This document shows, piece by piece, positions 5,097 through 20,914 of a stretch of DNA of 38,135 bases. Source of the DNA: Bacteroidia bacterium (lineage in GTDB: Bacteria; Bacteroidota; Bacteroidia; NS11-12g; UBA9320); the NCBI GenBank assembly GCA_017857855.1, contig JAFMCI010000017.1, positions 1 through 38,135 on the forward strand. The letters run 5' to 3'. The position numbers and the translations under genes are program-made. How positions within the stretch are numbered: position 1 is the first letter of the stretch; every line of letters starts with the position of its first letter. The notes beneath the pieces were generated by a model. That model was not told where the DNA came from. It saw only the letters and a program-made list of their open reading frames with translations, and searched no databases.

Positions 5097-5115
5097 GCTT
5101 TATTAAAGTGTGGCG

Positions 5116-5123
5116 CAAATTTA
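5116..5123 (-). promoter_or_regulatory. candidate -7 box (TAAATTTG) for ffh-pdxH
   Basis: The minus-strand octamer matches the Bacteroidetes -7 consensus TAnnTTTG exactly and lies 19 bases before the ffh ATG. No exact -33 TTTG is present at the usual distance. Confidence 0.5.
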
Positions 5124-5229
5124 CCTAAAAAAGAACTTGGACAGAATATAACATTCAAATTGTTCCTGTTTTGGATTTAGTATCCCAATTCTTCTCACTT
5201 TTTAAATGATTAAAGTCCTTGATTTATAA

Positions 5230-5981: not shown

Positions 5982-6490
5982 TCTTGTTTGCCGTCTAAGC
6001 GAAGGTACTCTCTGCTGAGTACAAATAAATAATCACTTAGTCTATTCAGAAATCGTATGTGAATGAGATATTCATCATTTTCGAGCGTCACCACTCTTCG
6101 CTCGGCACGACGGCAGATACATCGGGCTAAGTGGGTATGAGCACTTAACACATTACCTCCGGGTAATATAAAGTTTTTGAGTCTGGGCAATCCTTCGTTT
6201 AAGCGATCTATCTCTTTCTCAATTAGTAAAATATCCTCTTCTGAAACAGTTGGTAATTCAAAATCCAGATTCCCTTCCGAAGCTAAGACACTTCCTATAT
6301 TGAATAATTTGTGTTGTATGTCTTGCAAAAAGTCCACATAAACGGTATCTTCCCCTGCAACTATACCAATTGCTGAGTTCAACTCATCAACAGTGCCGTA
6401 AGCTTCGATTTGTGCATTATCTTTACTTACTCGTGTTCCTCCCACTAAAGATGTTTGTCCTTTATCCCCTGTTTTGGTATAAATCTTCAC
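5960..6490 (-). CDS. PduO-type cob(I)alamin adenosyltransferase
   Basis: A 176-residue protein that transfers adenosyl from ATP to cob(I)alamin, making coenzyme B12. The ATP-binding N-terminal motif TKTGDKGQTSL is at 5-15, followed by RVSKDNAQIEAYGTVDELNS. The corrinoid/ATP helix motif RRAERR is at 127-132, and NRLSDYLFVLSR at 149-160. All are standard for the PduO/MMAB family, and the length is typical. It is the last gene of the minus-strand operon, 19 bases after the ABC ATPase. No B12 enzyme (methylmalonyl-CoA mutase, ribonucleotide reductase class II, etc.) lies in the window, so its client is elsewhere on the chromosome. Confidence 0.95.
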   Translation of the reverse strand: MKIYTKTGDKGQTSLVGGTRVSKDNAQIEAYGTVDELNSAIGIVAGEDTVYVDFLQDIQHKLFNIGSVLASEGNLDFELPTVSEEDILLIEKEIDRLNEGLPRLKNFILPGGNVLSAHTHLARCICRRAERRVVTLENDEYLIHIRFLNRLSDYLFVLSREYLRLDGKQEVIWQKK

Positions 6491-6509
6491 TATGTTTTCT
6501 TATTTTAAT

Positions 6510-7193
6510 TTAGATAACACTTAACTGGCTTGCAAGTTTGCCATCACGCATACGAATTGTTCTTTTTGCATATTGCGCAATATCTTCTTCGTGTGTAACC
6601 ATAACTACTGTATTGCCTTCATCATGTATTGCTTGAAATAAGTGCATGATTTCAGCACTACTTTTACTATCCAAATTTCCCGTCGGCTCATCTGCTAAAA
6701 CGATACTTGGATTGTTTATTAATGCTCGAGCTATGGCCACACGTTGACGTTGTCCGCCACTTAATTCATTTGGTTTATGGTCACCTCTATCGCCAAGTCC
6801 CACTTTTTCAAGGACAGCTTGCGCTCTTTCTAGTCGTTCTTTTTTGGCTACGCCGGCATACACAAGCGGCAATGCAACATTTTCCAATGCTGAAGTTCGT
6901 GGCAATAAATTAAATGACTGAAATACAAATCCTATTTCCACGTTTCTCACATTGGCTAATTCGTCGTCAGTCATCCCGCTCACATCTTGTCCGTTTAATA
7001 AATAGATACCAGAAGTGGGAGAATCCAAACAACCAATTACATTCATAAGCGTGGATTTCCCAGAACCAGACGGTCCCATTAATGCAACATACTCTCCCTT
7101 TTCGATATTACACTCTAATCCGTTTAAGGCATTAATAGTGGTGGTACCCATTTGATATTTTTTGAAGATATTCTGTAACTCTATAAGCGCCAT
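6510..7193 (-). CDS. ABC transporter ATPase, LolD/MacB type
   Basis: A 227-residue ATPase of the family that powers LolCDE lipoprotein release, MacB-type efflux and FtsEX-like mechanotransmission. Walker A is GPSGSGKST (40-48), the Q-loop FQSFNLLP is near 91-98, the signature LSGGQ at 144-148, Walker B IVLADEP at 164-170, and the H-loop VMVTHEE follows. All catalytic residues are present. The usual partner permease (FtsX/MacB fold) is not adjacent, so the partner must be encoded elsewhere. The ATG overlaps the gatC stop by one base (TAATG). In Bacteroidetes such ATPases are often separated from their permeases, so the substrate cannot be named. Confidence 0.94.
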
Positions 7194-7483
7194 TATTTTG
7201 TGATTACTTTAGGAACTTTAAAATAATCAGAATCAGCAGATGGTGCATTTTTTAACGCATCATTTTTAGTCATGCCTACCTCAGCCAAATCTTCTCTTAG
7301 TATATTTTGTTCGTTATTTAAATAGATTAAAGGTTCAACACCCTCTGTATTTACTTCACGAAGTTTATCACAAAAGACAATAATGCGACCTAAATCTGCT
7401 TTTATTGCTTCTTTATCTTCCACATTAAATTCTAAACGGGAAAGGTGCGCCAAATCAGCTATTTTTTTATCATCTATTATCAT
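7193..7483 (-). CDS. gatC: aspartyl/glutamyl-tRNA amidotransferase subunit C
   Basis: A 96-residue protein, the small subunit that holds GatA and GatB together in the GatCAB complex, which amidates misacylated Glu-tRNA(Gln) and/or Asp-tRNA(Asn). Family marks are the N-terminal [12 protein letters not shown], the middle [11 protein letters not shown] and the C-terminal YFKVPKVI. GatA and GatB are not in this window, so the complex is encoded at scattered loci. It overlaps plsC by four bases (ATGA) and the downstream ATPase by one base, so all are one transcript. Confidence 0.95.
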
Positions 7484-8220
7484 AAACCATTCATTTCTTT
7501 AAACTTTGCTTCAATAATACCATACACTTGCTCGGCAAGTACTAATTCATCTCCCGATTTTAGATTTTCGGTAGGAATAGGTCGATGAATATGCATTCTC
7601 ATGCGTCCTGGTGTACCGGCAGGTATCCATTCACCACAAGGGAGTCTTTTCCAATTATCTGGCAAGGTAACCGGAACGACCTCAATACCATGCTCTATGG
7701 CCATTTTAAATGGTCCTAGTTTAAAATCTCTCATTTTGGGCACTTGTGGGCCAATGCCTCCTTCAGGAAAATTAAGCAGGCTAATTCCTGATTTTAATTT
7801 TTTGTTCGCCAAATAATAGGCGCGTTTTGCTCCTTCTTTAGAAGATCTATCCACTGGCATATCTAGCGTTCTAAAGAAAATGCCAAATAAAGGTATTCGC
7901 GATAATTCCTTTTTAGCCATAAAACTAAAAAAATAAGGCATTTGCGTATTTACCGAGACAATGTCAAAATAGGAGAAATGATTTGGCGTAAAAATATACG
8001 TTTTATCCAATTTCAATTCTTCATCCTTGGTTGTTTTGCCATAGAGCCCTGTTACAGCCATTAGCATTCTTCCCCAAAATCTACGCAATTTGTGGGCTTG
8101 TGGATACCATTTTGGCTTGGACAATAACACCACAAACAAGGGATATAGCACTAAGAATATCAGGATAAACCATATAAAAAAATAGATAGACCAAATATAT
8201 CGAGGCAGCTTGCTTATCAC
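7480..8220 (-). CDS. 1-acyl-sn-glycerol-3-phosphate acyltransferase (PlsC-type)
   Basis: A 246-residue membrane acyltransferase of phospholipid or related lipid synthesis. A long hydrophobic helix lies at about 8-34. Motif I is NHFSYFD (H81 and D86, the catalytic H-x4-D). The acceptor-phosphate motif is FPEGG (151-155), where the family more often has FPEGT. The VPVTLPDNW stretch is the last conserved block. The start codon is GTG at 8220, which overlaps the upstream stop in a GTGA tetramer. The change in the FPEGT motif may mean another acyl acceptor than lysophosphatidate. Confidence 0.9.
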   Translation of the reverse strand: MISKLPRYIWSIYFFIWFILIFLVLYPLFVVLLSKPKWYPQAHKLRRFWGRMLMAVTGLYGKTTKDEELKLDKTYIFTPNHFSYFDIVSVNTQMPYFFSFMAKKELSRIPLFGIFFRTLDMPVDRSSKEGAKRAYYLANKKLKSGISLLNFPEGGIGPQVPKMRDFKLGPFKMAIEHGIEVVPVTLPDNWKRLPCGEWIPAGTPGRMRMHIHRPIPTENLKSGDELVLAEQVYGIIEAKFKEMNGL

Positions 8221-8621
8221 CCTTTAAGGTATTCTGAAAGTTTATGTACTTGTACATTTAAAAAATCAGCGAGAAGTTTTTCTGCCATCATTTTCATCAT
8301 AAAATTCAGATCAGCATTAATAATCGCTTCTACTTCTGAGGTGTTTTCATCTACGAAAACTATATTCCATTGTATGTCAAATTTAAACGGCACCTTATTT
8401 TGCGGTACCATTACTATTTTAGTTGGGCTAGTTCTTTCCGTTATGGCGAGCTCTACAACTCCTATTCCTTCAATATCTAGTTTAGCTGTATCGGTTGTCG
8501 CCTCAAATGACCGAACCTTACTTGGCATAAGCACCTGGTAATTTGCGGGCACAGACAAGTAGTCAAATACTTCGATACTTGCCTTACTTATCGTGGATTT
8601 ATTACTTTTTATTTCTACCAT
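8217..8621 (-). CDS. SRPBCC-family (START-like) protein of unknown ligand
   Basis: A 134-residue cytoplasmic protein. Its order of strands and helices, from the N-terminal KSTISKASIEVFDYLSVPAN through repeated strands (AKLDIEGIGVVELAITE, FKFDIQWNIVFV) to a long C-terminal helix (MAEKLLADFLNVQVHKLSEY), fits the SRPBCC/START fold that encloses hydrophobic ligands. No catalytic residues are evident. It lies directly before the acyltransferase with a four-base overlap, so a role with lipids or in handling a hydrophobic molecule is a reasonable guess, not shown. Confidence 0.75.
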   Translation of the reverse strand: MVEIKSNKSTISKASIEVFDYLSVPANYQVLMPSKVRSFEATTDTAKLDIEGIGVVELAITERTSPTKIVMVPQNKVPFKFDIQWNIVFVDENTSEVEAIINADLNFMMKMMAEKLLADFLNVQVHKLSEYLKG

Positions 8622-8623
8622 TT

Positions 8624-9145
8624 TTATTGTTTATACATCATATTGGTTCCTATAAAAGCCGCCATTAGAATTGAAATAATTAATCCTGACACTAAGCTAC
8701 TACCTATACTAATCATGACGTAACCCATAGGCTTATATTGGGCAGCTATTTGTTGTTTAACCGTTATGAGCTCCATTGGTTTATCTGCAGGCTTTATGTT
8801 CTTATCTTGCTCCACTTTAAGTGTTGCTTGCTCAAATGATTCATTCACTTTAGCCTGATAAAAAGAGCCATCCGGAGCATACAATGCAAGAAATGCTATA
8901 ATCATAACGCCAGCACGTACAATTGAAATCAACAAACCACTAAGTAGGGTTCTAGCAAGGCTTATTTGTCCACCCAGTAACTTTTTAGTAAGAATTAAAC
9001 CTGCTCCTACACAAATTACTAGAACCGCTAGTTTACTTATATACATAGCAGCAGCATTGGAGTCAACACTTCTAAAAAACAGAAATTCCAGCAATGCACA
9101 CAGTAGCCCTGCCAGAATTCCAAAAATCCAAATTGATTTCTGCAT
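8624..9145 (-). CDS. DUF4199-like integral membrane protein
   Basis: A 173-residue membrane protein with four predicted helices: about 4-25, 33-53, 66-90 and 143-168. A hydrophilic loop at about 92-140 (VNESFEQATLKVEQDKNIKP) is rich in charged residues and probably faces one side as a small domain. The layout fits DUF4199, a Bacteroidetes family of unknown function. The gene sits 15 bases after the PUR-like gene and two bases before the SRPBCC gene, inside the seven-gene operon. Confidence 0.8.
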   Translation of the reverse strand: MQKSIWIFGILAGLLCALLEFLFFRSVDSNAAAMYISKLAVLVICVGAGLILTKKLLGGQISLARTLLSGLLISIVRAGVMIIAFLALYAPDGSFYQAKVNESFEQATLKVEQDKNIKPADKPMELITVKQQIAAQYKPMGYVMISIGSSLVSGLIISILMAAFIGTNMMYKQ

Positions 9146-9160
9146 TATTTAAGTAAAACC

Positions 9161-9457
9161 TTAACCTTCGTTGCTATCTCTTCTTGTAAATTCATCAAAA
9201 TCGTACTCCGGCATTAAATCACTCTTAACGTAATTTACCGTTTCTGTAAATGCTTCGTTGAATTTATTAAAATCTTCTTTGTATAAGAATATTTTGTGCT
9301 TCACATACCCACCATCTTCAAATTTACGTGTACTTTCTGTGATGGTAATATAATACTCTTCCCCTCGCGTTGCTTTTACATCAAAAAAATACGTACGCTT
9401 TCCCGCTCTTACCTTCTTAGAGAATACTTCTTCTCTGTCAAAATTTGACTCCGCCAT
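9161..9457 (-). CDS. PUR-alpha-like nucleic acid-binding protein (DUF3276)
   Basis: A 98-residue protein with the PUR-repeat pattern: N-terminal EEVFSKKVRAGKRTYFFDVK, then EEYYITITES and a KIFLYKEDFNKFNEAF strand-helix, ending in an acidic tail. DUF3276 proteins of Bacteroidetes are small single-repeat relatives of eukaryotic PUR-alpha that bind single-stranded DNA or RNA as dimers. The role in the cell is not known. It is the first gene of the operon that runs to 5960. No exact -7 box was found in the 69-base gap upstream, only a near match (GTCATTTG). Confidence 0.9.
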   Translation of the reverse strand: MAESNFDREEVFSKKVRAGKRTYFFDVKATRGEEYYITITESTRKFEDGGYVKHKIFLYKEDFNKFNEAFTETVNYVKSDLMPEYDFDEFTRRDSNEG

Positions 9458-9526
9458 TGTTATTATTCTGTACCTTAAGAGTACAAATGACGTAAATTTT
9501 TAGATTATTTTAACTATTTTTTTATT

Positions 9527-11314
9527 TTACACCTCGGTTGAATTCACTATTTGCTTTTCAAACAAAGCAGCGTATACTCCATTTTTAAGCAATAAAAATT
9601 CATGGTTACCTTGTTCTACAACCCTTCCTTGATCTAAAAAAATGATTTCACCGCAATCCTGAATAGAAGATATTCTATGACTAATATTAATAAACGTTTG
9701 CTCTTTCCCCCATTTTTTCAAGCCGTTTTTTATACTTACCTCTGTTTTGGTGTCTACCGCCGAAAGACCATCGTCTATGAGTAGAACAGTTGGATTTTTA
9801 ACCAATGCCCGTGCAATCGCGGTTCTCTGTTTTTGACCACCACTTAAGGTGATTCCTCTCTCTCCCAAGATAGTCTCTAATCCATTGGGGAAGCCCTTTA
9901 TTTCTTCTGTTAAACTAGCCGTATCCACTGCTAGTTCCAAATTAGAAGCCTGCTCTGGAGAAGTAATACCAAACAAAATATTGGCTTTTAGTGAATCTGA
10001 GAAAAGGAAGATATCTTGAGCAACATATGCAAACATCGTTTTTAGACTCTTTCTACTGTAATCCTTCAAACTAGTGCCGTCTAATCTAATTTCTCCTTCT
10101 GTAGGCTCATATACACCCATCAATAATTTTGCGATAGTGCTTTTGCCACTTCCGGTAGTTCCTATGATTCCAAACTTCGTGTTTGCTTCAACTTTAAAAG
10201 ATACATGACGAAGCACCCATTCATCTGATTCAGCATACCGAAATGACACATTATCAAAAACAATATTTTTCTCCAATTTGGCAATGGTTTTTGTACCTAA
10301 ATCCTCATCAGCGGGTATATTTAAAAATTCTTCGATACGGGACTGAGATGCCGCTCCTTGTTGCACTAATGACGTTACGTAACCAAGACTGGCTACTGGC
10401 CAGGTTAACATATTAACATATAATATATACTCCACAATATTACCTAAGCTAAACCGCCCATCCACCACTGCATTGCCTCCCACATAAATGGTAATTAAAA
10501 CACTTAAACCAACAAGACCCATAACGGCAGGCATAAAAACACCATTAATTCTTACTAAGGCCATGTTATCGTCCCTATAACCCTCATTTAAAGTATCAAA
10601 ATCTCTAGCAAAATCATTTTCTCTGCCGTAGGATTTTACTACCGCTATCCCCGCAAACGTTTCTTGGGTGTACGAAGTAATTATGGATAGTTTTTTTTGA
10701 ATTATGTCACTTTTTTTATTGATCGAATCGCTAACTAGATAGATGGTTATAACCAATATTGGAAGTGGGATCAACACCCATAACGTAATAGTTGCATTTA
10801 CTGAAAACATAAGCCCTACGACCATGAGAATCATAAAGGTCAAATTAAGCGCATACATAATAGCAGGGCCAGTAAACATTCGTACTTTAGAAACATCATC
10901 ACTAATTCTGTTCATGAGATCTCCAGTATAATTTTTAGAAAAAAAACTCTGCCCCATTTGTTGATAATGTTTAAAGATGTCATTCTTTTGCTCGTACTCT
11001 ATCTTTCGAGACATTATTATAAGCGTCATGCGCATGTAATACATACACCAGCCCTTGAGCAAGGCAGCTACTAAAATCAATACGCCAGACAATACCGCTA
11101 ATTTTGCGGATGAATCAAAATACGCCGGTAAATACTTACTGTATTCCGGTAGTTGATTATTGTTGAGCAGCCCAATAACACCATCTACCGATTCTCTCAC
11201 AATAGGTGGTATTACAATCGCGAACAAATTTGAAAGGATTATAAATAAAAGACCCGACATTAAGTATTTACGGTACTTTACGAAATATTTCTGTAGTGAG
11301 AGAAGCTCTTTCAA
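9527..11314 (-). CDS. ABC exporter half-transporter, MdlA-like, with Asp in place of the catalytic Glu
   Basis: A 595-residue type I ABC exporter half with an N-terminal six-helix membrane domain (about 18-315) and a C-terminal ATPase. Walker A is GTTGSGKST (385-393), the signature LSGGQ is 490-494, and the H-loop histidine is H546. After the Walker B aspartate D514, the usual catalytic glutamate is replaced by D515 (IDDGLSAVD). This pattern is known from the degenerate subunit of heterodimeric exporters such as TM287/288 and from MdlA. The partner half is not next to it. The substrate is unknown (drug, lipid or peptide export are possible). It is transcribed alone and divergently from leucine dehydrogenase, with an exact promoter-like box 42 bases before its ATG. 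Confidence 0.92.
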   Translation of the reverse strand: MKELLSLQKYFVKYRKYLMSGLLFIILSNLFAIVIPPIVRESVDGVIGLLNNNQLPEYSKYLPAYFDSSAKLAVLSGVLILVAALLKGWCMYYMRMTLIIMSRKIEYEQKNDIFKHYQQMGQSFFSKNYTGDLMNRISDDVSKVRMFTGPAIMYALNLTFMILMVVGLMFSVNATITLWVLIPLPILVITIYLVSDSINKKSDIIQKKLSIITSYTQETFAGIAVVKSYGRENDFARDFDTLNEGYRDDNMALVRINGVFMPAVMGLVGLSVLITIYVGGNAVVDGRFSLGNIVEYILYVNMLTWPVASLGYVTSLVQQGAASQSRIEEFLNIPADEDLGTKTIAKLEKNIVFDNVSFRYAESDEWVLRHVSFKVEANTKFGIIGTTGSGKSTIAKLLMGVYEPTEGEIRLDGTSLKDYSRKSLKTMFAYVAQDIFLFSDSLKANILFGITSPEQASNLELAVDTASLTEEIKGFPNGLETILGERGITLSGGQKQRTAIARALVKNPTVLLIDDGLSAVDTKTEVSIKNGLKKWGKEQTFINISHRISSIQDCGEIIFLDQGRVVEQGNHEFLLLKNGVYAALFEKQIVNSTEV

Positions 11315-11345
11315 AGGGTCGTGATTTTCGGAATGAATTTAAATA

Positions 11346-11353
11346 TACTTTTG
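11346..11353 (+). promoter_or_regulatory. candidate -7 box (TACTTTTG) for leucine dehydrogenase
   Basis: An exact TAnnTTTG match on the plus strand, 41 bases before the ATG at 11395. It is separated by only three bases from an exact minus-strand box for the ABC exporter. Confidence 0.5.
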
Positions 11354-11356
11354 CTG

Positions 11357-11364
11357 CAAAGTTA
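11357..11364 (-). promoter_or_regulatory. candidate -7 box (TAACTTTG) for the ABC exporter
   Basis: An exact TAnnTTTG match on the minus strand, 42 bases before the ATG at 11314. The two divergent boxes are so close that RNA polymerase could not occupy both promoters at once. Confidence 0.45.
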
Positions 11365-11394
11365 AGATTCATTAACGAGATAAAGTTAAAATAA

Positions 11395-12495
11395 ATGAGC
11401 ACAGCGACAACAATAATTCACGACAAGCAACTAGGGATATTTGCCGAAGTTAAATCAACTAATCACGAGCAAGTAGTCTTTTGTAACGACAATGCTAGTG
11501 GCTTGAGAGCAATAATAGCGATACATAATACTGTTTTAGGCCCTGGTCTAGGCGGTACGCGTATGTGGAACTATGCTACAGAAGCAGAAGCTTTAAATGA
11601 CGTTCTTCGCTTATCTCGCGGCATGACTTACAAAGCAGCCATATCAGGTTTAAACCTAGGTGGTGCCAAAGCCGTAATTATCGGTGATGCCAAAAAAGAC
11701 AAATCAGAAGCATTGATGAGAAAATTCGGTCGCTTTGTAGAAAACTTAAACGGTAAATATATAACAGCTGAAGACGTTGGAACAACGACTAAGGACATGG
11801 AATATGTAAAAATGGAAACGGATAGTGTTGCTGGATTGCCTGAAAGTATGGGCGGCGGTGGCGACCCTTCTCCTGTAACCGCATATGGTGTGTATATGGG
11901 AATGAAAGCAAGTGCCAAAAAAGCATACGGTTCAGATAGCTTAGCAGGAAAACGCATTTCAGTACAAGGTATTGGAAAGGTTGGGATGCATCTTGTTGAG
12001 CTAATACATAATGAAGGTGCTATAATAACTGTGTCTGATATAAATGAAGAAAGCCTGCAATATGCGGCAACGACTTATGGCGCTAAAGTAGTGAATGGCG
12101 ATGAGATCTATACTCAAGATGTTGACATATTTGCTCCATGCGCATTGGGCGCTATTCTTAATACCGAAAATATTAATGCGCTAAGATGTAGCATTATAGC
12201 TGGAGCGGCTAACAACCAATTAGCGAATGAAGATGAACATGGAACTTTGATTAAACAAAAAGGTTTGTTATATGCTCCTGATTTTTTAGTGAATGCTGGA
12301 GGTTTGATCAATGTATATTCTGAAGTAATAGGTTACAACCGAGAAAATGCAATGCGTGATACTGAAAAAATATACGATACCACGTTAAATATCTATTCCG
12401 TAGCAGAAGCTCAAAATATCCATACACAACAAGCAGCTACCATGCTCGCTCAAAAACGAATAGACGACATACTTAGCGTACGTTCAACATACTAG
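11395..12495 (+). CDS. ldh: leucine dehydrogenase (Glu/Leu/Phe/Val dehydrogenase family)
   Basis: A 366-residue NAD-dependent branched-chain amino acid dehydrogenase that deaminates leucine, valine or isoleucine to the 2-oxo acid, reversibly. GPGLGGTR (49-56) and MTYKAAISGLNLGGAK give the substrate-binding K80 and the catalytic K92, with the same 12-residue spacing as in Bacillus leucine dehydrogenase. TAEDVGTT supplies the next active-site segment. The Rossmann motif GIGKVG is at 192-197. The length is normal. Substrate choice between leucine, valine and phenylalanine cannot be fixed from sequence alone. A GT-C-like membrane protein gene follows two bases after the stop. Confidence 0.95.
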   Translation: MSTATTIIHDKQLGIFAEVKSTNHEQVVFCNDNASGLRAIIAIHNTVLGPGLGGTRMWNYATEAEALNDVLRLSRGMTYKAAISGLNLGGAKAVIIGDAKKDKSEALMRKFGRFVENLNGKYITAEDVGTTTKDMEYVKMETDSVAGLPESMGGGGDPSPVTAYGVYMGMKASAKKAYGSDSLAGKRISVQGIGKVGMHLVELIHNEGAIITVSDINEESLQYAATTYGAKVVNGDEIYTQDVDIFAPCALGAILNTENINALRCSIIAGAANNQLANEDEHGTLIKQKGLLYAPDFLVNAGGLINVYSEVIGYNRENAMRDTEKIYDTTLNIYSVAEAQNIHTQQAATMLAQKRIDDILSVRSTY

Positions 12496-16947: not shown

Positions 16948-17763
16948 ATGACCGAATTAAAAAAAACCATTCTTAAAGCATGGGAAAACAGAGAATTACT
17001 GCAAGACCTTGACGTCCAAAAAAGCATTCGCCAAGTTATTGAGCTAATAGATAAAGGACAATTAAGATGTGCTGAGCCAACGATAAATGGCTGGCAGGTA
17101 AATGATTGGGTTAAGAAAGCTGTCATTCTATATTTCCCTATTCAGAAAATGCAAACCATAGAAGTAGGGCCTTTTGAGTTTTATGATAAAATGGCGCTTA
17201 AAAAAGATTATGAAGCGCAAGGTGTACGCGTAGTACCCCATGCTATTGCACGTTATGGTGCATTTCTAGCCAAAGGAGTCATTATGATGCCCAGTTATGT
17301 GAACATAGGTGCCTATGTAGACAGCGGAACCATGGTGGATACGTGGGCTACGGTGGGCAGTTGTGCTCAAATCGGTAAAAATGTACACCTAAGTGGGGGC
17401 GTAGGCATTGGTGGGGTTTTAGAACCCGTACAAGCCGCACCTGTCATTATAGAAGATGACTGCTTTATTGGAAGTAGATGTATTATAGTAGAAGGTGTAC
17501 ACGTGGAAACCCAAGCAGTTATAGGGGCCGGAGTAACCCTCACTATGAGTACAAAAATTATTGACGTAACAGGCCCGGAACCAATAGAATATAAAGGCAG
17601 AGTTCCTGCACGTTCAGTGGTTATTCCAGGTAGTATTCAAAAAGAATTTGCAGCCGGAAGCTATGGCGTAAATTGTGCACTTATAATTGGTACACGCAAA
17701 GAATCTACCGACAAGAAAACTTCATTAAATGACGTGCTTCGCGATTTTCAAGTGCCTGTGTAA
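16948..17763 (+). CDS. dapD: 2,3,4,5-tetrahydropyridine-2,6-dicarboxylate N-succinyltransferase
   Basis: A 271-residue trimeric acyltransferase of the succinylase branch of diaminopimelate and lysine synthesis, using succinyl-CoA. An N-terminal helical domain (WENRELLQD, then GQLRCAEP) is followed by a left-handed beta-helix of hexapeptide repeats (VNIGAYVDSGTMVDTWATVG, GKNVHLSGGVGIGGVLEP) and the C-terminal block GPEPIEYKGRVPARSVVIPG. Length and order are standard. In this organism it implies meso-diaminopimelate in peptidoglycan made by the succinylase route. A glycosyltransferase gene starts directly at its stop codon. Confidence 0.97.
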   Translation: MTELKKTILKAWENRELLQDLDVQKSIRQVIELIDKGQLRCAEPTINGWQVNDWVKKAVILYFPIQKMQTIEVGPFEFYDKMALKKDYEAQGVRVVPHAIARYGAFLAKGVIMMPSYVNIGAYVDSGTMVDTWATVGSCAQIGKNVHLSGGVGIGGVLEPVQAAPVIIEDDCFIGSRCIIVEGVHVETQAVIGAGVTLTMSTKIIDVTGPEPIEYKGRVPARSVVIPGSIQKEFAAGSYGVNCALIIGTRKESTDKKTSLNDVLRDFQVPV

Positions 17764-18813
17764 ATGAAAATAGGTTTTGACGCTAAACGATATTTTAGTA
17801 ACAGCACAGGCTTGGGAAACTATGCACGCTGGCTTATCAATTCGTTACCACAAGACCAAATAGAATCCATACTTTATCAGCCTAAAAGCACAGGAAAATC
17901 AAGCCCTGCTCCTGTTTCATTCCCCAAAAGTTGGTACAAATGGGTTCCTTCCCTGTGGCGGAGTAAATTTATATGTAAACAATTACAAAACGAGCACTTA
18001 GATGTATACCACGGACTAAGCAATGAACTACCGTTTGGCATACACAAGCTTAAGCTTAAAACAGTGGTAACCATCCACGATCTTATTAATCTTAGATATC
18101 CAGAAAACTATGGTGTTATAGATCGTTTTATTTACAAGAAAAAGTTAGATTACGCTCAAAAGTATGCTACTAAAATTGTAGTACCAAGTGAGCAAACCAA
18201 AAAGGATTTACTCTATTTTTTTGATACAGATCCCAACAAAATTGAAGTTATTCCGCTCAGTCTCCCAAAGCCACGTGCAATTGAAAAAACAGTGGATTTG
18301 TCAGATTATATCTTGTGTGTAAGTGGATTTAGCAAACGAAAGAATCTAGAAGCTCTTCTGGAGGCATATAAGCATGTGCCTGGCAAAATACGTTTACTCT
18401 TGGTAGGAAAGGGAGGTGACACAACGAGCCAGATTCAAAGAAAATCAAAAGAAGATAACAGAATCGAAATAAGACAAAATGTTACCGATAAAGAGTTATC
18501 TCAATTATACTCAGATGCACTATTTTGTGTTTACCCTTCGCTATTCGAAGGTTTTGGATTACCCATATTAGAAGCTTTTTTACACGGCAAAACAGCTGCA
18601 ACCTCTAATATAAGTAGCATGCCAGAGGTAGGGGGCGATGCCGCAACTTATTTCGATCCACAAGATGTGTGCAGTATTAGGGATGCTATTGAATTTCTGT
18701 TAATCCAAAGTAATAGAAAACAGAAAGAATTAGAAATCCCAAATCAACTGGCACTTTTCAATTCTAACTACCTGATCGACAAATATATTAAGCTCTACAA
18801 AAGCCTTTTTTAG
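17764..18813 (+). CDS. GT4-family glycosyltransferase
   Basis: A 349-residue GT-B glycosyltransferase. The N-terminus MKIGFDAKRYFSNSTGLGNYAR is the acceptor-side pattern of the family, with a VTIHDLINLRYPE block. The C-terminal domain has the linker ILCVSGFSKRKNLEALLEAY and the EX7E motif EGFGLPILE (E262 and E270), which binds the nucleotide sugar. A cytoplasmic enzyme that adds a sugar to a lipid-linked or soluble acceptor is likely; the sugar cannot be told. It starts immediately after the dapD stop, so both share a transcript, which may be just an economical arrangement. Confidence 0.92.
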   Translation: MKIGFDAKRYFSNSTGLGNYARWLINSLPQDQIESILYQPKSTGKSSPAPVSFPKSWYKWVPSLWRSKFICKQLQNEHLDVYHGLSNELPFGIHKLKLKTVVTIHDLINLRYPENYGVIDRFIYKKKLDYAQKYATKIVVPSEQTKKDLLYFFDTDPNKIEVIPLSLPKPRAIEKTVDLSDYILCVSGFSKRKNLEALLEAYKHVPGKIRLLLVGKGGDTTSQIQRKSKEDNRIEIRQNVTDKELSQLYSDALFCVYPSLFEGFGLPILEAFLHGKTAATSNISSMPEVGGDAATYFDPQDVCSIRDAIEFLLIQSNRKQKELEIPNQLALFNSNYLIDKYIKLYKSLF

Positions 18814-18841: not shown

Positions 18842-18854
18842 ATGACTAGGTCAT
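18842..18854. promoter_or_regulatory. short palindrome, possible operator
   Basis: ATGAC and GTCAT flank TAG, a perfect 5-bp inverted repeat. It lies 25 bases upstream of the exact -7 box at 18880, where an activator or repressor site could sit. It is short enough to arise by chance. Confidence 0.25.
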
Positions 18855-18879
18855 GACACATCTAAAGAAAATAAGAGTT

Positions 18880-18887
18880 TAGATTTG
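18880..18887 (+). promoter_or_regulatory. candidate -7 box (TAGATTTG) in the coxB upstream region
   Basis: An exact TAnnTTTG match 248 bases before coxB. Transcription would begin about four or five bases downstream, where a perfect stem-loop starts. Confidence 0.45.
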
Positions 18888-18891
18888 TCCC

Positions 18892-18979
18892 ATAATGTTA
18901 TTTGAAGTTGTTTGTAAACATTAACATTATTTTAGTTTTAGTTTTTGGTTTCAAAAAGAGGGAAATTTCCCTCTTTTTG
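18892..18979 (+). ncRNA. candidate small RNA or leader/attenuator RNA
   Basis: ATAATGTTA (18892-18900) pairs perfectly with TAACATTAT (18922-18930), and the loop holds a smaller stem, TGTT (18909-18912) with AACA (18917-18920). A U-rich linker follows, then a strong palindromic terminator (18952-18979). An exact -7 box ends at 18887, so the predicted 5' end coincides with the first stem. The result is an RNA of about 88 bases with a capped 5' end and a terminator. It could be an independent small RNA or a leader that controls read-through into coxB. No known family was recognised. Confidence 0.4.
18952..18979. terminator. perfect palindromic terminator, probably active in both directions
   Basis: CAAAAAGAGGGAAA (18952-18965) is followed at once by its exact reverse complement (18966-18979): 14-bp arms with no spacer. 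In RNA the GAGGGA/TCCCTC core would form the stem with a small AU loop, followed by five U. A run of A before the stem makes it symmetric. Confidence 0.7.
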
Positions 18980-19013
18980 TGTTTCATAACCCTTTCATTT
19001 TCAATTCTATTTA

Positions 19014-19085: not shown

Positions 19086-19093
19086 TATTTTCG
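19086..19093 (+). promoter_or_regulatory. candidate -7 box (TATTTTCG) for coxB
   Basis: The octamer lies 42 bases before the coxB ATG. It is the same octamer as those before the genes starting at 1761 and 3052 and one base off TAnnTTTG. Confidence 0.4.
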
Positions 19094-19135: not shown

Positions 19136-20914
19136 ATGATATTTCAAACCAACAACCGATTAAAGGGGTTATTCCTATTTCTAGGACTCTTTATTATTCA
19201 GTATTCATTTGCATTCGAAAACAACTTGAAACGACCTATAAATGGTCAAGATGGTTCTGTGGAGCGAATTGAAGAGGGAAGTAAGCTGTTTAATGCCAAT
19301 TGTGCATCGTGCCATGCTTTAAATAATAAAGTAGTTGGTCCTGCACTTGCAGGTGTGGTTGACAAGTACAGTGAAGATTACACTTGGCTTTTAAGCTGGA
19401 TTAAAAACAATCAGAAATTAGTAAAGAGCGGTGACGAAAGAGCTAATAAAATCTACGCAGAATATAATGGCGCTGCCATGAATATATTCGAAAACCTATC
19501 TGATGATCAAATTACAAGTGTTTTGATGTGGATAGACAACGGAGGTGATGGAGGGACTATCGCTGTTGACGCTTCTGTAACTCAAGAAATTGCGCCGGTT
19601 AGCGATGGGTTATTTAGTAAAATTAACTGGATAGTAGTTGTAATGTGCTTGTTGGTTTTTGCCGTTATTTTAATGATTCTTGGAATACTTGAATTGGTAT
19701 CTAACATCACCGGAAGAGAAGTTATAAATTGGAATAACATTAACGCCTACATGATGTTGGTATTCTTAGTGGGTTTTTTCGGTTTGGTAATTTATGAATA
19801 TAGCATACACAATCAATTCAACCTTGCCAATTTCGAATCTGCCTCTGAGCACGGAATTGAGATGGATAGAATGATGAGATGGACCTGGATAGCTACACTT
19901 CCAGTGTTCTTTGTTACTCAATTCCTTTTATTCTTCTTCTCATTCAAATACAGACAAAAACCTAATCACAAAGCATACTTCTTATCTCACAACAACAACC
20001 TTGAGTATGTATGGACCTTAATCCCGGCGATTGTTTTAGCTGTGTTGGTTTCTGGAGGATTTAAAATGTGGAATAAAGTATTACGTTCTGATCCAGATGG
20101 TAAAACACAACAGATAGAAGTATTTGCCTACCAATTTGGTTGGAATGCTAGATATCCTGGAGCAGACGGAGAATTAGGTAAAGCAAACTTTAACCTTATC
20201 AATGGAGTTAATCCATTAGGTGTTGCTAACAGAGAGCACGCTGTTGAGCTTATTAAAGAACTTGAAGCAGACATATTATCTATGGACACCGCTCTCATGA
20301 GGCTTCCTAAAGAGCTTGCAGTACTAAAATCTGGTTTAGGTGGGCTTGTAGACGATGAACGAAAAGACCAATTAAATAAGATCAAAGCATATACTTCTGG
20401 TGACAAAAAAGCAGACTTAGAATTATTGATTAGAGCTAGACACACTCAAATAGACAGACTTAAAAAAGCGCTAGCAGCAGAAGGTGGAATGTTTGACGGT
20501 AAAGGAGATGATGACCAAGTAGTTGGTGAAATTCACTTGGTTAAAGATAAGCCCGTAAGATTGAGATTTAGAGCAAGAGATGTGATCCATTCTGCTTACT
20601 TGCCATACTTCAGAACACAGATGAACGTAGTACCAGGATTACCTACAGAGTTCACTTTCACGCCTATTAAGTCTACTAGAGAAATGCAAGCAATTAAGGG
20701 AGATCCAGAGTTTGACTACTATTTAGTATGTAACAAAATATGCGGTAACGCACACTTTAACATGAAGATGAAAGTAGTAGTTGAAGATCAAGCTTCTTAT
20801 GATAAATGGATGGCTGAGCAAGCTGCCCTTTTTGTTAAGAAACCAGAAACACCATCATTACCTACAAGTGTTTCAGACTCTACTTCGACAATTGAAACTG
20901 TAGCATTAAACTAA
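19136..20914 (+). CDS. coxB: cytochrome c oxidase subunit II fused to an N-terminal cytochrome c
   Basis: A 592-residue protein that accepts electrons from a c-type cytochrome and passes them via CuA to subunit I. Residues 1-26 form a signal peptide (ending SFA). Residues about 40-136 form a class I cytochrome c domain: heme attachment CASCH (C56, C59, H60) and probable axial M115. Four membrane helices follow (about 165-187, 203-221, 248-269, 291-310); four are usual in Bacteroidetes subunit II. The cupredoxin domain starts at VFAYQFGWNARYPGADG. It is interrupted at about 362-460 by a charged helical insertion, then resumes at GEIHLVKDKP. CuA ligands are H485, C532, C536, H540 and M543 (CNKICGNAHFNM). 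Ordinary subunit II proteins lack both the N-terminal cytochrome and this insertion. It is the first gene of the oxidase cluster. Confidence 0.95.
   Translation: MIFQTNNRLKGLFLFLGLFIIQYSFAFENNLKRPINGQDGSVERIEEGSKLFNANCASCHALNNKVVGPALAGVVDKYSEDYTWLLSWIKNNQKLVKSGDERANKIYAEYNGAAMNIFENLSDDQITSVLMWIDNGGDGGTIAVDASVTQEIAPVSDGLFSKINWIVVVMCLLVFAVILMILGILELVSNITGREVINWNNINAYMMLVFLVGFFGLVIYEYSIHNQFNLANFESASEHGIEMDRMMRWTWIATLPVFFVTQFLLFFFSFKYRQKPNHKAYFLSHNNNLEYVWTLIPAIVLAVLVSGGFKMWNKVLRSDPDGKTQQIEVFAYQFGWNARYPGADGELGKANFNLINGVNPLGVANREHAVELIKELEADILSMDTALMRLPKELAVLKSGLGGLVDDERKDQLNKIKAYTSGDKKADLELLIRARHTQIDRLKKALAAEGGMFDGKGDDDQVVGEIHLVKDKPVRLRFRARDVIHSAYLPYFRTQMNVVPGLPTEFTFTPIKSTREMQAIKGDPEFDYYLVCNKICGNAHFNMKMKVVVEDQASYDKWMAEQAALFVKKPETPSLPTSVSDSTSTIETVALN

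Follow-up and report, generated by a model that had tools for sequence, protein, structure and literature searches.

A candidate small-RNA gene with its own promoter and terminator upstream of the cytochrome oxidase genes in an uncultured Bacteroidia family

Results

The window analysed here is a stretch of 38,135 nucleotides from an uncultured Bacteroidia bacterium. An open reading frame at 19136-20914 encodes a cytochrome c plus COX2 protein (coxB), and genes for COX1, CtaA, UbiA, COX3 and SCO1 come after it. Upstream lie a THDPS (dapD-like) gene at 16948-17763 and then a glycosyltransferase gene at 17764-18813. In the family to which this organism belongs, CoxB carries an N-terminal cytochrome c domain, while in a sister family (f2) the cytochrome c and COX2 parts match separate proteins. 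A candidate small-RNA gene is found directly 5' of the oxidase genes. A preliminary description of this DNA had pointed to a promoter box, TAGATTTG at 18880-18887, a 9-bp inverted repeat, ATAATGTTA at 18892-18900 with TAACATTAT at 18922-18930, and a 28-base palindrome, CAAAAAGAGGGAAATTTCCCTCTTTTTG at 18952-18979, with the start of coxB 156 bases past the terminator; letters, positions and distance all proved accurate. The features of the locus are as follows.

18843..18857, + strand: direct repeat TGAC-N7-TGAC in an 11-bp register, which overlaps the -33 region and is presumed to be an activator site
18880..18887, + strand: -7 box TAGATTTG (consensus TAnnTTTG), from the sequence and the fixed repeat spacing kept by relatives
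18892..18984, + strand: predicted small RNA of about 93 nt, from the box position rule, the fold and a length table; +1 and 3' end are predicted
18892..18900, + strand: 5' arm of stem P1, from arms that co-vary between species and the minimum-energy fold from +1
18922..18930, + strand: 3' arm of stem P1, on the same grounds
18931..18951, + strand: U-rich linker with its core AGTTTTAGTTTTTGGTT at 18934-18950, predicted single-stranded, from near-invariance and unpaired probability
18952..18979, + strand: intrinsic terminator hairpin of 12 bp, from paired changes in relatives and the arm-swap test
19086..19093, + strand: second -7 box, TATTTTCG, belonging to the cox operon and lying outside the RNA, a TAnnTT[TC]G match before coxB

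Conservation of the intergenic region in the genus (19 genomes, G000 to G018) was first shown by BLAST, and reading the regions then revealed a shared architecture. This consists of TGAC-N7-TGAC, a -7 box, a stem whose sequence changes, a near-fixed linker and a terminator; 16 genomes from two genera retain promoter, 5' stem and terminator together, and the predicted RNA is 85-103 nt long in relatives. A covariance model of the linker plus terminator, built from 22 aligned sequences, finds the element once per genome in 23 of the 38 genomes of the family, with E values of 1.4e-8 or better; 22 of these members built the model and so match by construction, and the last, G026, was found by it. 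With stricter filters, able to lose weak matches, the same model found nothing outside the family at E 1e-5 or better either in the order (108 genomes) or in a sample of the class (395 genomes), and overall no strong match outside the family came from about 450 other genomes of the class. When about 85,000 species were scanned for the exact core and the hits scored with the model, 19 strong members (59 bits or more) were recovered. All match family records and are assemblies of uncultured Bacteroidetes or Bacteroidia, of which two bear the name Chitinophaga pinensis, probably in error; the remaining exact-core matches reach at most 34 bits and share little beyond the searched core. Weak model matches of about 30-37 bits elsewhere in G008, G013 and G014 lack the linker when read. 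A widespread repeat or mobile element was rejected, the element being confined to one copy per genome and to a single family. No open reading frame is conserved among the 16 genomes, and a small coding RNA was rejected on this ground. The preliminary description had recognised no known RNA family, and a search of Rfam (4227 models) likewise gave no family above its curated threshold, including those of the Bacteroides small RNAs. A search of the literature, covering open-access papers and few of the subscription journals, returned no report of this RNA. The element is a new, previously unnamed family of a known kind of molecule.

The promoter is conserved together with the RNA. TGAC-N7-TGAC is present in all 15 genus members read and in G023; the second TGAC begins 26 nt before the box in 13/13 genus members matching TAnnTT[TC]G, and 25 nt before it in G023. 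This spacing stays fixed while the distance from box to linker varies between 46 and 64 nt. In 13 of the 19 genus genomes the combined pattern TGAC-N6-RTGACA-N21-TAnnTTYG has a single exact match, always at this RNA gene, and a decoy with N19 instead of N21 has none anywhere. Upstream sequences in three other genera (g2, g3 and g7) are related, not identical, to the genus promoter. In Flavobacterium psychrophilum TAnnTTTG has been mapped at -12 to -5 (PMC9723704), which places the predicted +1 here at 18892, where the 5' arm starts. The small-RNA promoter has a TAnnTTTG box and no -33 box, with the head-to-tail repeat standing at a fixed distance instead; this replacement suggests an OmpR/PhoB-type activator that would bind in tandem. 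The earlier proposal of a palindromic control site at 18842-18854 is not borne out, as relatives keep only the direct repeat at 18843-18857, and a palindromic operator was rejected. Two near-identical TGAC-repeat sites (TGACACATATATGACAGTAATATTACAAATACTTATGCATTTG and a relative) were seen at G014:C50:3246-3288 and G006:C190:4830-4872, where the repeat is nearer to the box by two bases than at the small-RNA gene. In several genus members an inverted repeat resembling TGTCTAAACGATGACA recurs ahead of an AT-rich TAnnTTTT(G) stretch, at G007:C81:13014, G017:C1:145273, G002:C78:1250 and G009:C2:51954; it is perhaps the site of another regulator.

The window's own sequence says little about the 5' stem. 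Folded from 18888, its pre-terminator part is no better than shuffles (z +0.33), and P1 is weak alone (p about 0.2); folded from 18892, the minimum-energy structure is the stem of the preliminary description, an open linker (96% unpaired) and the terminator. Among relatives, the box-to-linker segment has a negative folding z against dinucleotide shuffles in 16/16 genomes (mean -2.5). We also used an arm-swap test, which sets the 5' half from one species against the 3' half from a different one. Across ten clusters of relatives, the P1 arms of the same species sum to -97.5 kcal/mol, against -56.8 (sd 7.7) kcal/mol when swapped, so that arms from different species pair worse, and 1 of 200,000 permutations was as good. 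Upstream and downstream control segments were negative, and the terminator, as positive control, showed the effect. The sequence of P1 thus differs between species while its pairing is kept. The uniformly negative z and the co-varying arms indicate that the 5' stem is more than chance, and the conservation and compensatory changes that the preliminary description had told readers to look for are both there.

The linker is nearly invariant across the 22 aligned sequences, which span six genera, and its predicted mean unpaired probability over 16 genomes is 0.88. The terminator hairpin is strong; its pairs are kept in relatives with changes on both sides (arm-swap, 0 of 50000), giving the RNA an intrinsic terminator of its own with conserved pairing. 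It is also the only strong terminator between the glycosyltransferase gene and coxB, so the glycosyltransferase mRNA probably ends at this hairpin too. In a gap between RND efflux and GNAT genes (L184 about 5100-5160, G000:C31 about 52100; L180 4829-4892 minus, G012:C32) we noticed a second RNA end, where an almost identical U-rich linker runs straight into a terminator. Its linker reads TTTTTTAGTTTTTGGTT in G000 and has the exact core in G012, with similar matches in G001 and G018; it may be a related 3'-end RNA.

The CoxB protein was matched in 52 of 58 related genomes, and in 22 of the 23 genomes that have the RNA it lies immediately upstream of coxB and in the same orientation. The other is G026, where the RNA lies beside alternative-complex-III genes with no adjacent coxB, none being found in that 73% complete genome; here the RNA (L140 6039) is tail to tail with genes at 6321-11972 that by eye resemble actC to actF. 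In genera g3 and g7 other genes stand between the glycosyltransferase gene and the RNA, and the upstream neighbours differ; in g4 and g8 coxB is present and the RNA absent; and G011, G012 and G017 have neither a coxB match nor a strong model match. In the seven genus genomes that were scored, a TAnnTT[TC]G box precedes the start codon of coxB by 50-72 nt, and the box can also be seen in the other leaders that were read. In G008, 510 nt separate the linker from the coxB start codon. No antiterminator fold is predicted, linker-terminator arm pairing having a probability of 0.05 or less in 16/16 genomes. As to INDEPENDENCE from coxB, the RNA is tied to coxB by position and is not its obligatory leader, because coxB has a box of its own, the gap in G008 is long, G026 has the RNA elsewhere, the neighbours change in g3 and g7, and g4 and g8 have coxB without the RNA.

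Discussion

Comparison among relatives supports a conserved non-coding RNA gene with a predicted promoter and terminator of its own, and likewise supports its independence from coxB. The element is very probably a regulatory RNA. Our preferred reading, to which we give a probability of roughly 0.7, is that of an independently transcribed, Hfq-independent and probably trans-acting small RNA activated by a regulator that binds the repeat. The RNA, of about 93 nt, would consist of three modules: a 5' stem kept by pairing, a U-rich linker that is single-stranded and almost invariant, and an intrinsic terminator. An OmpR/PhoB-type tandem-binding regulator probably binds TGAC-N7-TGAC and activates the promoter; the 5' stem would protect the 5' end of the RNA; and the exposed linker would, most likely, pair in trans with A-rich mRNA stretches.

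The position before coxB in 22/23 genomes is a counterpoint to action in trans and also fits a role in cis. The preliminary description had left open a small RNA or an attenuator, and these two halves have fared differently: the kept unit, the fixed spacing and the co-varying arms argue for the small RNA, whereas the separate cox box, G008 and G026 argue against the attenuator. As a leader of the cox operon, transcription would start at 18892 and either stop at the hairpin or read through into coxB in response to a signal. The place of the RNA directly upstream of coxB, on one strand with it, in 22/23 genomes speaks for such a leader, and a stem, linker and terminator before an operon resemble known transcription attenuators and leader RNAs. 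It differs from these in that the operon downstream is preceded by a promoter box of its own, as judged from sequence, and no alternative antiterminator is predicted in the 16 genomes; together with the 510 nt in G008 and the RNA without adjacent coxB in G026, this makes a leader or attenuator of cox quite improbable, and we rejected it. We consider it very improbable that the element makes no separate RNA and is simply the 3' UTR and terminator with which the glycosyltransferase operon ends. The hairpin is indeed the only strong terminator before coxB, but the upstream gene differs between genera while the element stays, the promoter is conserved at fixed spacing, and a terminator needs neither a co-varying stem nor an invariant linker.

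In the genus, complements of the linker core, counted at two mismatches or fewer, are as numerous as those of a reversed-pattern control, with no excess to back the putative pairing in trans; no genus-wide mRNA keeps a long linker complement. Outside the RNA gene there are three exact complements of the 17-base core, all in 3' UTRs just before terminators (L182 5352-5368; L183 5567-5583 minus; L181 3864-3880), following the stop codons of a SusD-like gene in G007 and G003 and of an OmpA-like gene in G004. Since the G003 and G007 cases are orthologous, these amount to two independent cases, and as targets they are suggestive. coxB was rejected as a pairing target, its start region scoring near the middle of other start regions. 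Hfq was found in none of the 38 family genomes and was detected in five control genomes, and a small RNA dependent on Hfq was rejected because the family encodes none. A more specific scheme, speculative and rather doubtful, is an Hfq-independent hub whose linker pairs with these exact complements before the terminators of outer-membrane-protein mRNAs, for 3'-end control or sponging, and whose promoter would be the chief one served by its regulator. It is also possible, if unlikely, that the RNA is a decoy or a store whose invariant linker mainly binds a protein, an RNA-binding regulator or a chaperone other than Hfq, and does not pair with mRNAs. Near-invariance across six genera, the lack of a genus-wide mRNA with a long conserved complement, and the similar linker before the terminator in the RND-GNAT gap would all fit protein binding. 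However, no candidate protein was found, Hfq is absent, and a single copy of the linker per RNA makes a weak decoy.

The promoter of the proposed trans-acting small RNA is like PhoB-type (Pho box) promoters in having a direct repeat of 11-bp register in place of the upstream promoter box. Its reverse strand reads TGTCAT-N4-xxGTCAT, which comes close to the textbook Pho box, and its orientation is opposite to that in the E. coli pstS promoter. A PstS-type phosphate-binding protein was found in none of the 19 genus genomes and in 13 of 14 control genomes. The comparison with pstS as a route to a Pho regulon was dropped, since a genus without PstS has no pst site to compare. Among known Bacteroidota small RNAs, FopS and GibS of Bacteroides thetaiotaomicron (PMC11697453, PMC7366714) are also short intergenic RNAs with TAnnTTTG-type promoters, and share a conserved single-stranded seed, a Rho-independent terminator and Hfq-free action, features that are here predicted. 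FopS is a multicopy family with its seed at the 5' end (PMC11697453, PMC7366714), whereas this RNA is single-copy per genome, has a 5' stem and is conserved in the stretch that leads into the terminator. The small RNAs of Flavobacterium psychrophilum, Rfp18 among them (PMC9723704), are similar as conserved, independent RNAs of structured fold in aquatic Bacteroidota. Rfp18, which is conserved in Flavobacterium and pairs through its third stem-loop (PMC9723704), is set apart, by description and not by sequence, from an RNA with a single stem P1 and an open linker.

Few Bacteroidota have well-described regulatory RNAs, and our search of open-access papers returned no report of one from this uncultured aquatic lineage. 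In organisms that lack Hfq, this RNA combines a covariance signature with an exposed linker that hardly varies, and its promoter points to a single regulator. If confirmed, it would provide a model for Hfq-free small-RNA action and might connect an environmental signal to the respiratory locus.
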